Assembly: GCA_009391195.1 (NCBI GenBank) | Contig: VEXB01000011.1 | Location: 1-36,812 of the forward strand | DNA length: 36,812 bases | Reading direction: 5' to 3' | DNA from: SAR202 cluster bacterium AC-647-P02_OGT_505m | Lineage (GTDB): Bacteria > Chloroflexota > Dehalococcoidia > Lucifugimonadales > UBA826 | Shown here: one piece after another, positions 8,161-22,907 of the stretch | How positions within the stretch are numbered: position 1 is the first letter of the stretch | How the letters are laid out: each line of letters starts with the position of its first letter | Program-made: the position numbers and the translations under genes | The notes under the pieces: generated by a model | Databases searched by the model: none | Told to the model about the DNA's origin: nothing | Seen by the model: only the letters and a program-made list of their open reading frames with translations

Positions 8161-9327
8161 ATGAAAATTACAGACGTGGAAATATTCGTTGTAGATGGCG
8201 GTAGAAAGAAGTGGCTATTTTCAGCCGTTCGGACTGACGAGGGTGTGACTGGGTACGGTGAATTTGGGTATGGAACGGTGGCAAAATCTCTGGTTGGATT
8301 TGTTGAAGATATAAAGCCACTTGTCATTGGGAAGGATCCGAGCGCTGTAGAGAAAATATATTTTGACCTTTACCGCGCATTAAGACAGGTTCCAGGAGGA
8401 ATCGCGCAGATGGGTATCGCGGCTATTGAACTCGCCTGTTGGGATATCAAGGGAAAGGCTCTTGGGCTTCCTGTCTCACACTTGCTCGGTGGCCCACATC
8501 GTGACTCGCAAAGGGTCTATTGGTCTCATATGGCTAGTGCTCGAGCACATAATCCCTCTTTAGCGCCGAACAAACCCTTGAAGGACTGGGAAGCCGTAGC
8601 TGCAGCGACACGTGAAGTTAGGGAAAGAGGATATGATGCGTTCAAAACAAATATATTTTGGCCTGGAGAAATCCCTAAACCTATAAGTCAGGGTAGGGAT
8701 GGGATTAACCACGATCAGAGAGTAGATACTGAACTCCTTCGCCACGCTGAGAAACAAATTTCTGTGATGAGGGATGCTGCCGGTGACTCTGTAGACATAT
8801 TGCTCGATGTGAACTACAACTTTAAGACCGAAGGAGTTATCAGACTCGCAAAAACTTTGGAACCATACAAATTATTTTGGATAGAACACGACAATGAAAA
8901 TCCGCAGGCCTTGGCACAGTTGAGGGATTCTACTTCTATCTCTTTGGCCTCTGGCGAGGAACACTTTACCATGAGAGAGTATCTTCCATATTTTGAATTA
9001 CGGGCGATGGATACGGTTTTGGTTGACGTGCAATGGCAAGGATTTGGACCCTCGAAAAAGGTAGCGGATATAGCTGAAACATATGAAATGAATATAGCGC
9101 CACATAATCCGGCTTCTGAACTAGCCAGTTTTCAGTCCGTACATTTGTGTGCTTCAGTGTCTAATGTACGAATTATGGAGAGTGATCCAGAAGGGGTTCC
9201 ATGGCGGGAAGAACTTTTCACAAATATGCCCGAAGTAGTGAAAGGTCGTATGCAAGTTCCGACATCTCCTGGATGGGGTTGCGATCTTGTTGAAGAGGCA
9301 GCTATTCGTTACGCCTGGTCAGGATAG
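8161..9327 (+). CDS. Mandelate racemase/enolase-superfamily enzyme, tandem copy 1
   Basis: A 388-residue member of COG4948, which abstracts a proton alpha to a carboxylate, usually to dehydrate or racemise sugar acids. Mg ligands are D216 (LLDVN), E242 (WIEHD) and E266 (SGEEH). The general base is the D289-H315 dyad (VDVQWQG ... APHNP), and E340 lies in RIMESD. The first-side KxK motif reads K162-T-N164, so the second Lys is Asn. This makes a racemase unlikely and an acid-sugar dehydratase plausible. The start ATG is preceded by TAAGG. A second copy follows 49 bases downstream, and a carrier gene is divergent upstream. Confidence 0.9.
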   Translation: MKITDVEIFVVDGGRKKWLFSAVRTDEGVTGYGEFGYGTVAKSLVGFVEDIKPLVIGKDPSAVEKIYFDLYRALRQVPGGIAQMGIAAIELACWDIKGKALGLPVSHLLGGPHRDSQRVYWSHMASARAHNPSLAPNKPLKDWEAVAAATREVRERGYDAFKTNIFWPGEIPKPISQGRDGINHDQRVDTELLRHAEKQISVMRDAAGDSVDILLDVNYNFKTEGVIRLAKTLEPYKLFWIEHDNENPQALAQLRDSTSISLASGEEHFTMREYLPYFELRAMDTVLVDVQWQGFGPSKKVADIAETYEMNIAPHNPASELASFQSVHLCASVSNVRIMESDPEGVPWREELFTNMPEVVKGRMQVPTSPGWGCDLVEEAAIRYAWSG

Positions 9328-9376: not shown

Positions 9377-10543
9377 ATGAAAATTACAAAGATCGAAACT
9401 TTTCCCGTGAAGACCATAGGAAATGGCGCATGGATGTTCTGCGCTATCAGGACAGATAATGGTTTAACAGGATATGGAGAGTTCGGTACGGGTCTGTTCA
9501 AGAGAGGTCTACCCGCGCTGGTTATGGATATAGGGGAAACTTTGATAGGTAAGGATCCTAGGGCAGTTGATAAGCATTTTATGGATATGTACAGGCTTAC
9601 TCGCTCTGCCTCTGGAGGCGCAACGGCGATGGCCATTGCTGGTATCGAACTGGCTTTATGGGATATAAAAGGCAAGGATGCTGGAGTTCCGGTATATGAA
9701 TTATTTGGGGGACCTCACAGACAAGAACAGAGAGTTTATTGGTCTCATTTAGCGACTTATAGAGCGATGTATCCAGAACTTTACGATAAGCCGGTTCTAA
9801 AAAATATGAGTGATGTAGGAGACTGCGCTGTTGAAGCGGTAGAAAAAGGATATTCAGCATTCAAAACAAATTTAGTATTTCCAGGAGACAAGCCTTTTAC
9901 AATATCGGATTTTAACCCTGACTCCAACGATCAAAATGCTCCAACTGAGGTAGTAAAACATGCTGAAAATCAGATTTCCGTAATGAGGGAAGCCGTTGGT
10001 TCCGATATTGATATTTGCTTGGACATTAACTTTAACTTCAAGACAGAAGGAGCTATAGCGATAGGAAAGATATTGGAGCCGTATGATCTTTTCTGGATGG
10101 AGATCGATAATCAGGACCCTACGGCATTGGCCCAAATCAAGTCGTCGCAACAGACGCCTATTTGTACCGGTGAACAATTGTTGGGTTTGCGTCAGTACCG
10201 CCCTTTCCTGGAAGTCACAGCAATGGACACTCTTAAAATTGATGTTCAATGGCAAGGATTTTCACAGGCAAAAAAGGTTGCGGACCTTGCAGAAGTATAT
10301 GACGTGAATATAGCTCCTCATAACTATAATTCACACCTATCCTCCTTTCAAAGTTTAAATTTAACGGCGTCGGTTTCAAATGTGCGCATTATGGAAAGTG
10401 ATGTAGATTCTGCTCCTTGGAGAGATGAGATCACAACAGAGATACCTGAGTTGGAGAAGGGGTATATGAAAATTCCTTCAATGCCTGGTTGGGGTTGTAA
10501 CCTAGATGAAAATGCAGCAAAGAAATACGCATATGAAGGTTAA
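9377..10543 (+). CDS. Mandelate racemase/enolase-superfamily enzyme, tandem copy 2
   Basis: Another 388-residue COG4948 protein, aligning end to end with its upstream neighbour without length change (both begin MKIT and end with Y-A-x-x-G). Like copy 1 it has FKTN in place of KxK, LDINFNFKTEG (Mg-ligand Asp), WMEIDNQDP (Mg-ligand Glu), CTGEQL (third ligand Glu) and the DVQWQG...APHNY Asp-His dyad. The substrate-facing segments differ: SGEEH versus CTGEQ, and PHNP versus PHNY. The pair is therefore a tandem duplication with probable substrate divergence, not simple redundancy. Both are likely in one transcript. The product is unknown. Confidence 0.9.
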   Translation: MKITKIETFPVKTIGNGAWMFCAIRTDNGLTGYGEFGTGLFKRGLPALVMDIGETLIGKDPRAVDKHFMDMYRLTRSASGGATAMAIAGIELALWDIKGKDAGVPVYELFGGPHRQEQRVYWSHLATYRAMYPELYDKPVLKNMSDVGDCAVEAVEKGYSAFKTNLVFPGDKPFTISDFNPDSNDQNAPTEVVKHAENQISVMREAVGSDIDICLDINFNFKTEGAIAIGKILEPYDLFWMEIDNQDPTALAQIKSSQQTPICTGEQLLGLRQYRPFLEVTAMDTLKIDVQWQGFSQAKKVADLAEVYDVNIAPHNYNSHLSSFQSLNLTASVSNVRIMESDVDSAPWRDEITTEIPELEKGYMKIPSMPGWGCNLDENAAKKYAYEG

Positions 10544-10670: not shown

Positions 10671-11525
10671 TTGAATTTGAAATTTAAGTGGCTATCGATA
10701 AGCTTAATATTTGCTAGCTCTGTGTTAATCGCGAGCTGCAATTCTGGTGGTAATCAGGATCAAGATATTCTGGAGCTTCAGGCTACGGTACTTGCTATGT
10801 CATCAGAGCAATTGAAGGAACCAGCTAGGCAAAATGAGACTCCTGCAAAACCCTTACCGACATATACCCCTTTCCCGACATATACTCCTTATCCAACTTT
10901 GGAACCCCTGCCGACCTTAACGCCTTTGCCTCCTTTGCCTCCTTTGCCAACTTTAGTACCACTGCAGACTCATACTCCAAACCCAACATATATTCCCTAT
11001 CCAACTTTGGAACCCCTGCCGACCTTAACGCCTTTGCCAACCTTGGAACCTTTACCGACGTATACACCTTTTCCCACATACACTCCTTATCCAACTCCAA
11101 TTACTCCCACTGCGACCCCTACTCCTGTTCCTACTCCGACTCTAACTCCCACCCCTTATGGGTACCAGTCGATAGTCAGTCAAGCTGGAATGGTAACCTT
11201 GGGGAATAATGGATATCAAGGAGCATTTACTGGTGTAATCGATACTCCTGGGGATACGGATACATACATGTTTGATGCTGTAAAGGGACAAACTCTCGAA
11301 GTTACTATGTCGAGTAATGTAATAGATACTCTTTTGGAACTGACGGATCCCGATGGCCAAAGGGAAATGAGGGTCGATGACTCCGGCGGTGGCACAAACG
11401 CCACTCTCATTAGAACGCTAAGTAAATCAGGAACTTATCTTATTATCGCAAGTTCGGCCACTTCAGGGTTATCTGACTTTGGTGCTTATAATCTGTCATT
11501 CACCCTAAACCCTAAAGCTAACTAG
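10671..11525 (+). CDS. Lipoprotein with Pro/Thr-rich repeats and a C-terminal PPC domain
   Basis: A 284-residue secreted lipoprotein. The signal peptide ends in a lipobox at about residue 23 (IASC). From about residue 60 to 165 it is a low-complexity stalk of repeated PT-Y/L-x-P units (LPTLTPLP, TYTPFPTYTPYP), ending in PTPTPTLTPTP, a style common in Chloroflexota. Residues about 180-280 form a bacterial pre-peptidase C-terminal (PPC) domain with GxxDTPGDTDTYMFDAVKGQTL, an extracellular beta-sandwich. It is probably a surface-anchored binding or spacer protein, with no catalytic residues seen. The start is a TTG with AAAGGGG just upstream. The DNA repeats of the stalk (about 10855-11130) are prone to copy-number change. 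Confidence 0.8.
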   Translation: MNLKFKWLSISLIFASSVLIASCNSGGNQDQDILELQATVLAMSSEQLKEPARQNETPAKPLPTYTPFPTYTPYPTLEPLPTLTPLPPLPPLPTLVPLQTHTPNPTYIPYPTLEPLPTLTPLPTLEPLPTYTPFPTYTPYPTPITPTATPTPVPTPTLTPTPYGYQSIVSQAGMVTLGNNGYQGAFTGVIDTPGDTDTYMFDAVKGQTLEVTMSSNVIDTLLELTDPDGQREMRVDDSGGGTNATLIRTLSKSGTYLIIASSATSGLSDFGAYNLSFTLNPKAN

Positions 11526-13722: not shown

Positions 13723-14148
13723 ATGCCTAAAGAAATGTCTGAGTCTGAAGCATTAGAGAGTTCAATCAAGTTCTCCAGTCGGTATGTTCAGAGAGGGCCT
13801 TATCAATTTTTTCCTGAGAAAGAGGTTGTGGAGGAAGTTCAGAAAGGTCTGGCTGAAAATCATCGAATAGAAGGATATAGGTACTGTCCTTGAATGCCTC
13901 TGAGTGGCGATCCCGTTGAGGATCGAAAAAAGATTTGTCCCTGTGAACGTCATCATGAAGATATAGAGAGGGATGGTTTCTGTATATGAATGTTTTTTGT
14001 AAGTGAAGAGTTTCTTCACAAGTACGAATCTGGAGAGGATTTCACTCAAACGATTGATGAAGCTGTTCCATTAGGAACTGAGTTATTTGAGGATACTGGG
14101 GGCAAAAAAGCCTTCAACGAGCGTCGTAGAAGCGAAAATTCCGAATGA
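13723..14148 (+). CDS. Selenocysteine-containing ferredoxin-thioredoxin reductase catalytic subunit (two Sec)
   Basis: Read with TGA as selenocysteine (U) at 13891-13893 and 13987-13989, this gives a 141-residue FTR beta-type catalytic subunit. The N-terminal segment (FPEKEVVEEVQKGLAENH) and the DPVEDRKKICPC block match the family. The cysteine pattern is C55-P-U57, then 14 residues, C72-P-C74, then 12 residues, C87-I-U89. In the known plant and cyanobacterial enzyme the first Cys of the CPC and CHC motifs plus both middle ones bind [4Fe-4S], and the second Cys of CPC and of CHC form the active disulfide. Here precisely those two redox positions are Sec. The usual central His of CHC is Ile88. 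The ATG at 13723 has AGAGG nine bases upstream. The gene ends at an ordinary TGA (14146-14148). It would accept electrons from ferredoxin and reduce a dithiol/selenol partner, most likely the glutaredoxin encoded 61 bases downstream. Confidence 0.9.
13908..13925 (+). promoter_or_regulatory. Candidate bacterial SECIS element for Sec57 of the FTR-like gene
   Basis: A perfect 6-bp stem CGATCC/GGATCG encloses the loop CGTTGA. The loop begins 20 nt after the TGA at 13891-13893 and has G at its second position. This fits the bacterial SECIS rule (apical loop about 16-37 nt downstream, G within the first two loop bases). Confidence 0.8.
14003..14019 (+). promoter_or_regulatory. Candidate bacterial SECIS element for Sec89 of the FTR-like gene
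   Basis: A perfect 6-bp stem GTGAAG/CTTCAC with loop AGTTT. The loop begins 19 nt after the TGA at 13987-13989 and has G in second place. The outer bases GTA and TAC could add a weak lower stem. Confidence 0.8.
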
Positions 14149-14209: not shown

Positions 14210-14461
14210 ATGTCTGAATCGATAAAAGTCTTTACGTCGGTAGGTTGAGGCCCTTGTCACATGGTGAAAGTGTATCTTTCACGAAAGGGGTTTGATTACA
14301 CAGAACACAACGTATCGAAGGATAGGGATGCTCTGAAAGAGCTGGTTACTATGGGCTACAGAAGTACCCCAGTGACAGTAATTGGAGACGAAAAAGTCGT
14401 CGGTTATAGCCCTTCTAAAATTGATGAGGCTTTGGACACCGCTGGTTTTTCAGCCTCTTAG
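14210..14461 (+). CDS. Selenocysteine-containing glutaredoxin / NrdH-redoxin-like protein (U-G-P-C active site)
   Basis: With the TGA at 14246-14248 read as Sec, the frame from ATG 14210 encodes 83 residues: MSESIKVFTSVG-U13-G-P-C16, a thioredoxin-fold protein of the short glutaredoxin/NrdH (YruB-like) type. Supporting marks are the beta-strand directly before the active site, the cis-Pro segment RSTPVTVIGDEKVVGYS at about 52-68, and a normal length of about 80 residues. Sec takes the place of the N-terminal, nucleophilic Cys of CxxC. A shorter frame starting at the ATG 14261 would lack the first strand and half of the active site, so it is not credible. TGGTGG (14194-14199) is a modest ribosome site. 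It is the likely electron acceptor of the neighbouring FTR. Confidence 0.9.
14264..14282 (+). promoter_or_regulatory. Candidate bacterial SECIS element for Sec13 of the glutaredoxin-like gene
   Basis: A perfect 7-bp stem GTGAAAG/CTTTCAC with loop TGTAT. The loop starts 22 nt after the TGA at 14246-14248, and G is the second loop base, the same geometry as the two hairpins in the preceding gene. Confidence 0.82.
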
Positions 14462-21761: not shown

Positions 21762-22907
21762 TTACATACTTAACCGTCGTAGACTTTTTTCATCGACTTT
21801 TATTCCAAGACCAGGACCGTCTGGAACGGTTATATACCCGTTGGCAAAATTGAAGTCCGTTTCGCATAAGTCGTCGCGAATGGCGCTAGGGGTTTGATCG
21901 TATTCCATCACAGGTTCTTGAACAAATGGTTCCGGGTTATGATTCGGAGGGCAAGGTGGAATAGTAGATATAACCTGAAGGCTTGCGGAGATCATAATAG
22001 GGGATCCCCACACATGTGGATTTACCTGGATTCCCATAGTGTTGGCAGTCATTGATACATTTCGCATTTCGCTAATTCCACCAACGTTCACCACGTCGGG
22101 TTGCACGATGTCGTAGGCTCGCCTTGAGAGGAAATCTTGGAATTCATATCGCGTACGCAGGTTTTCACCTCCAGATATTGCCATGGGTACGTTTGACTTT
22201 ACCTGTAGATAAGCCTCTATATCTTGCGCATTTACTGGCTCTTCAAACCATAAAATGTCTTGATCGGCTAACTTATTTCCGATTGTAATGGCCGATGACG
22301 AGTTGTAGGCCTGATTCGCATCGATCATTAATTTGAGATCTGGTCCGATTTCTTTTCTTATTGCCTTGACGCGGGTGATGTCTTTGGCCATTGGGAGACC
22401 CCCAACTTTAGTTTTCATTCCTAAGAAACCTGCATTTGCATAATTTTGGGCTTCAGCTAACAATCTGTGTGGGAATTCTTCCTCAGTGTAATAAAGCCCC
22501 GTAGCGTACACCGCCACCCTGTCTCGGACACTTCCCCCAAGCAGGTCGCTTATGGGGACTCCAAGCATTTTCCCTGTGATATCCCACAGAGCAGTGTCAA
22601 TCGCACTGATAGCAGAGCCGCCAATGCCCACGGCTATATTTGCGTTATACAGCGCATGAAACATTTTCTGCCAGAGCATCTGTCGTTTGGTAGGGTTTTC
22701 TCCGATCAGAATCTGGGACAACTCACTGTCGATTAGATGACCGGATGATCCGGTACATCCCTCTCCCCAACCAACTAATCCATCGTCGGTGGTGATCTTC
22801 ACGATTCCTACGCTTCGACGTTTAATCCAGTCTTGAGACCATCCGAATGGTATATCCAAGTCTGAAGATAGTTGAAACGTTTCAATGTTTGTGATTTTCA
22901 AATTCAC
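21762..22907 (-). CDS. Mandelate racemase-subgroup enolase-superfamily enzyme, probable acid-sugar dehydratase
   Basis: A 381-residue COG4948 protein, more canonical than the tandem pair at 8161-10543. All catalytic elements are present: K165-T-K167 (KxK), Mg ligands D196 (MIDAN), E222 (WFEEPV) and E248 (SGGEN), the dyad D271 (QPDVVNVGG) with H298 (NPHVWGS). A complete KxK plus Asp-His dyad allows proton abstraction from either face, as in mandelate racemase, galactonate and related dehydratases. The substrate is not assignable by eye. It converges with the lactonase gene (3-base gap) and is divergent from the MFS gene at 23064. Confidence 0.92.
   Translation of the reverse strand: MNLKITNIETFQLSSDLDIPFGWSQDWIKRRSVGIVKITTDDGLVGWGEGCTGSSGHLIDSELSQILIGENPTKRQMLWQKMFHALYNANIAVGIGGSAISAIDTALWDITGKMLGVPISDLLGGSVRDRVAVYATGLYYTEEEFPHRLLAEAQNYANAGFLGMKTKVGGLPMAKDITRVKAIRKEIGPDLKLMIDANQAYNSSSAITIGNKLADQDILWFEEPVNAQDIEAYLQVKSNVPMAISGGENLRTRYEFQDFLSRRAYDIVQPDVVNVGGISEMRNVSMTANTMGIQVNPHVWGSPIMISASLQVISTIPPCPPNHNPEPFVQEPVMEYDQTPSAIRDDLCETDFNFANGYITVPDGPGLGIKVDEKSLRRLSM

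Follow-up and report, generated by a model that had tools for sequence, protein, structure and literature searches.

Known selenium-containing FTRs

Selenocysteine (Sec)-containing forms of the ferredoxin-thioredoxin reductase (FTR) are known from a 2008 study of the GOS ocean metagenome, which described two FTR selenoproteins, one of them with two Sec at both redox-active Cys positions (PMC2398784). The first-reported Sec-containing FTR was found on read JCVI_READ_1093012271142 of that metagenome (PMC2398784), and the other GOS sequence could well belong to the single-Sec forms described below. FTR is counted among the selenoprotein families in a review (PMC9312934), a newer review gives two Sec per FTR protein (PMC13188914), and NCBIfam holds the equivalog NF041072, named 'FtrB family double-selenoprotein'. 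In the FTR mechanism, one of the two active sulfurs becomes a further cluster ligand and the other one attacks thioredoxin (PMC3838966).

Here, we analysed 36,812 nucleotides of contig VEXB01000011.1 from SAR202 cluster bacterium AC-647-P02_OGT_505m (GCA_009391195.1), hereafter the window. The initial annotation of this DNA implied that an FTR with both active Cys replaced would be new. Given the 2008 GOS report and the curated NF041072 family, the double-Sec FTR is an already known kind of enzyme and the FTR of the window is a member of it. What our analysis adds to this family is its genomic context, its taxonomic spread, the conserved SECIS pairs and the machinery found in relatives.

The FTR gene of the window

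Translated with TGA as Sec (U), the FTR reading frame (Table 1) gives a 141-aa protein with the motifs C55-P-U57, C72-P-C74 and C87-I-U89. It matches Pfam FeThRed_B with 78.3 bits (cut-off 22) and NCBIfam NF041072 (FtrB_double_U) with 220.6 bits (cut-off 160) over the full length of the model, and solved FTR chains match it with a best E-value of 1e-11. In the alignment with the plant FTR chain 7bzk, the CPC, CPC and CxC positions coincide, and the four cluster Cys (C55, C72, C74 and C87, arranged as CxC / CxC / CxC) are invariant across 23 aligned sequences. U57 and U89 fall on the redox-active pair, which in this family is Cys57-Cys87 in the Synechocystis numbering, with Cys55, 74, 76 and 85 on the cluster. 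The translation, both family models and the solved FTRs agree with the initial annotation that reading the two in-frame TGAs as Sec restores an FTR catalytic subunit, and its placement of Sec at both redox-active positions and of Cys at the four cluster ligands was supported by every test run. An AlphaFold model of the protein (23 sequences) had low confidence (pLDDT 57.5) and was left out of the argument.

The comparison covered 59 related loci including the window, 45 of them distinct in DNA, from Chloroflexota (SAR202, Dehalococcoidia, Chloroflexi and the same class). The gene ends with TAG in 21, TGA in 12 and TAA in 12 of the 45 distinct loci, so that the TGA at 14146 acts as a normal stop codon.

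Table 1. Features of the FTR locus (positions in the window)
Feature	Position	Strand	Basis and remarks
Small conserved ORF upstream of FTR, TTG start, 105 aa	13373..13690	+	C-x-C and M-x-C-x2-H conserved in relatives
FTR catalytic subunit, predicted double selenoprotein (U57, U89)	13723..14148	+	Translation with TGA=U, family matches; stop TGA 14146-14148
Predicted Sec57 codon, in-frame TGA	13891..13893	+	Corresponds to Cys57 of Synechocystis FTR, the active Cys that attacks thioredoxin; all 45 distinct relatives have TGA
Predicted bacterial SECIS hairpin for U57	13907..13926	+	Core CGATCC-CGTTGA-GGATCG, G second in loop; synonymous collapse at codons 62, 63, 66 and 68
Predicted Sec89 codon, in-frame TGA	13987..13989	+	Corresponds to Cys87 of Synechocystis FTR, the active Cys near the cluster; all 45 distinct relatives have TGA
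Predicted bacterial SECIS hairpin for U89	14003..14019	+	GTGAAGA-GTT-TCTTCAC; synonymous collapse at codons 94-99; re-written stem in L041
Predicted seleno-glutaredoxin, U13-G-P-C16 (TGA 14246-14248), TAG stop	14210..14461	+	Pfam Glutaredoxin, 49.9 bits; conserved neighbour
Predicted bacterial SECIS hairpin for glutaredoxin Sec	14264..14282	+	GTGAAAG-TGTAT-CTTTCAC

Gene neighbourhood and candidate partner

Directly downstream of the FTR gene lies a predicted seleno-glutaredoxin (Grx) with a UGPC motif, which scores under the cut-offs of the NCBIfam YruB (TIGR02196), NrdH and UXX-star models. The initial annotation of the FTR made no reference to this gene. All 22 named SAR202-branch loci have a UGPC Grx adjoining the FTR, as do 11 of the 26 class genomes with a double-TGA FTR. 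In one genome (G298), the Grx is next to the FTR but divergent. Because the adjacency holds in every SAR202-branch locus examined, once in divergent orientation, the linkage suggests a relay from ferredoxin to the FTR (Sec-Sec) and on to the glutaredoxin (Sec-Cys). From this gene linkage, we consider the adjacent UGPC seleno-glutaredoxin to be the somewhat favoured partner of the FTR in the SAR202 branch.

The main competing explanation accepts a true double-Sec FTR but places its partner, a thioredoxin or other disulfide protein, elsewhere in the genome, with the Grx adjacent for regulation, for example through a shared need for selenium. It draws on the fact that studied FTRs reduce thioredoxins (PMC3838966) and that no glutaredoxin neighbours the related double-Sec FTRs of other families: another double-Sec branch has no adjacent Grx (15/26 class genomes, 10/32 named loci), so that not every member can depend on the Grx as its partner. 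Inspection by eye of the neighbours listed for two loci (L068 and L075) from this Grx-less branch revealed no obvious redox partner beside the double-Sec FTR. Against a purely regulatory association, the FTR-Grx pair has been kept across the 22 named loci, even where the two genes diverge, and we regard a partner encoded elsewhere as a serious but less probable explanation.

Upstream of the FTR, the small conserved ORF is present in 20 of the 22 loci that have both FTR and Grx, and has no Pfam or NCBIfam match. Scans for promoters and terminators at the locus performed no better than on shuffled sequences. Elsewhere in the window, three ORFs (8161-9327, 9377-10543 and 21762-22907), two of them in tandem, resemble enolase-superfamily proteins of the mandelate-racemase type by eye, and the ORF at 10671-11525 begins like a lipoprotein and contains a Pro/Thr-rich repetitive stretch (PTYTPYPTLEPLPTLTPLP).

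SECIS-type hairpins

The bacterial SECIS consensus has a G in the first two positions of a loop of 3-9 nt, located 16-37 nt after the UGA, and an MFE of at most -7.5 (PMC13188914). The hairpins predicted after the three TGAs all conform, with UGA-to-loop distances of 20 nt (U57), 20 nt (U89) and 22 nt (Grx), the loops CGUUGA, GUU and UGUAU, and MFEs of -10.6, -10.6 and -16.7 kcal/mol, respectively (folding 54 nt of window sequence from each UGA onward). Across relatives, 96.9% (U57), 96.7% (U89) and 99.5% (Grx) of the cells are paired, compared with a mean of 66.5%, 64.6% and 59% under a synonymous-codon null in which none of 2000 runs reached the observed value; slid controls for the two FTR hairpins gave 15-68%. 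This null ignores the relatedness of the sequences, so the contrast in codon usage within the gene is the better evidence. Codon usage is free along the rest of the FTR gene, and codon homozygosity climbs to 0.76-1.0 within the hairpin stems. Near-invariant codons include GGC for G62 (44/45), GAT for D63 (44/45) and GAG for E66 (44/44) in the U57 stem, and AGC for S94 (41/44), GAG for E96 (45/45) and CTT for L98 (44/44; 0.24 expected) in the U89 stem. The U89 stem carries a double change from C-G to T-A in the window and has been re-written in one relative (L041) with the loop unchanged. In the U57 stem, six of 37 sequences have an A-C mismatch, and no compensatory change was found among these 37.

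Selenocysteine machinery

The source MAG (1.37 Mb) is 55.7% complete, and selA, selB and tRNA-Sec were not found above the cut-off in it. Matches resembling selA and selB stayed under the cut-off, and tRNA-Sec-like matches were discounted as tRNA-Ser and other tRNAs by their anticodons. The genome does encode selD (L012, contig 2, 93251-94168), with an in-frame TGA read as Sec in its catalytic motif (CAGUASK), which independently points to Sec decoding in this genome. The initial annotation had proposed searching the source genome for the Sec genes, and the search thus bore out only selD. It had also held that a complete genome devoid of Sec machinery would speak against the reading, which does not apply to a MAG of this completeness; the gap may be explained by the missing part of the assembly, and it is the relatives that answer this objection.

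In the class sample, 26 genomes have a double-TGA FTR; 24 of them carry tRNA-Sec, 24 selA (22 above the cut-off) and 21 selB. Only the genome of the window showed none of these genes, the other 25 having one or more. All 12 well-complete genomes of the class with a double-TGA FTR have both tRNA-Sec and selA, and a member of the same family as the source (G168, 94% complete) has selA, selB and tRNA-Sec.

Internal TGAs in frame do not by themselves identify the inserted residue, which could in principle be another amino acid if UGA had been reassigned, for instance to Trp or Gly, or if an ordinary near-cognate tRNA suppressed it. We reject this as highly improbable: TGA is the stop of the FTR gene in the window and in 11 other relatives, the internal TGAs are confined to catalytic Cys positions and followed by SECIS-type hairpins under synonymous constraint, and tRNA-Sec, selA and selB occur in relatives.

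Conservation of both TGAs

Both Sec codons are TGA in 45 of the 45 distinct FTR loci, and neither is TGC or TGT in any of them, a conservation far beyond chance. The pN/pS ratios before, between and after the TGAs are 0.30, 0.08 and 0.34 over all pairs, and 0.17, 0.02 and 0.07 for the window compared with seven close relatives; a shifted-frame control gave 1.3-4.3. The comparison with relatives that the initial annotation had called for therefore shows the same codons kept while codon usage varies freely outside the hairpin stems, and its view that the TGAs are not random nonsense agrees with the purifying selection on all three segments. That the gene is a decayed or mis-sequenced Cys-type FTR, its TGAs arising by nonsense mutation or faulty assembly, is an explanation that could appeal to the incomplete Sec machinery of the source MAG. 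It is untenable and of negligible probability, since independent assemblies yield the same two TGA codons in all 45 distinct genes and purifying selection persists downstream of both.

Together, the conserved TGAs, the SECIS-type hairpins and the machinery in relatives strongly support the predicted Sec decoding of the FTR TGAs. The locus is very probably a true selenoprotein gene for a SAR202/Dehalococcoidia FTR catalytic subunit of the NF041072 double-selenoprotein family.

Single-Sec relatives

Many further families of the class possess FTR homologues with a single TGA. In all 56 sequences read, the TGA is at the second, cluster-proximal position (equivalent to Cys87) and the first position is TGC or TGT. 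These single-Sec loci (L105-L120 and L125-L164) are of CHU and CYU types and belong to several families. Many have a G-loop hairpin downstream of the TGA (GGAAGGUCUUCC in one clade). Three single-Sec FTRs tested match NF041072 under its cut-off and have no other NCBIfam model. In a tree of 110 FTR rows, the double-Sec forms are one clade (97/92), and the single-Sec forms occupy two or more distinct positions among the Cys forms, in an alignment of 97 columns with some long branches and deep forks that are not settled. The sample holds Cys-Cys, Cys-Sec and Sec-Sec forms, and no Sec-Cys form with Sec at the first position only.

The exclusive use of the cluster-proximal position in 56/56 sequences would imply that the residue bound to the cluster in the one-electron intermediate is where selenium is first favoured. 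We give roughly even chances to the joint proposal that the SAR202-branch FTR and the UGPC Grx make up a dedicated relay built wholly on selenium (from ferredoxin and the [4Fe-4S] cluster to Sec-Sec and then Sec-Cys) and that other Dehalococcoidia clades independently replaced only the cluster-proximal Cys. Our search of open-licence papers found no description of the single-Sec FTR clades or of the FTR-glutaredoxin pair.

Proposed mechanism

SelB, guided by the hairpin that lies some 20 nt past each TGA, would insert Sec at both active-site positions. By homology to studied FTRs, the four Cys would hold a [4Fe-4S] cluster, to which reduced ferredoxin would give one electron as the U57-U89 bond opens. 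U89 would then stay bound to the cluster as an additional ligand while U57 attacks the bond of the partner, and a second electron would release the partner. An actual Se-Se bond and an altered potential and kinetics of the enzyme, as proposed in the initial annotation, are putative. The two stop codons in this gene are meaningful, in an enzyme of a kind known but little studied. The occurrence of Cys-Cys, Cys-Sec and Sec-Sec FTRs in nature raises the testable question of what selenium contributes at each position, and the linked seleno-glutaredoxin is a candidate substrate for the double-Sec form.

Comparison with known systems

The FTR of the window resembles NF041072 and the GOS FTR in its fold family, in two Sec at both redox-active positions and in predicted SECIS elements, and we found no difference that separates them. 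With the plant and cyanobacterial FTRs (FeThRed_B, PDB 7bzk), it has in common the CPC / CPC / CxC motifs and, by homology, a putative [4Fe-4S] cluster with an adjacent active pair. It differs from them in having a predicted Sec-Sec rather than a Cys-Cys pair, in its glutaredoxin-like candidate partner, and in its host, a SAR202/Dehalococcoidia-type Chloroflexota instead of a plastid or cyanobacterium. The downstream gene is similar to known selenoprotein glutaredoxins (UxxC, Pfam Glutaredoxin) in its UGPC motif and Grx match, but falls under the YruB, NrdH and UXX-star cut-offs and, within the SAR202 branch, invariably stands beside the double-Sec FTR gene.
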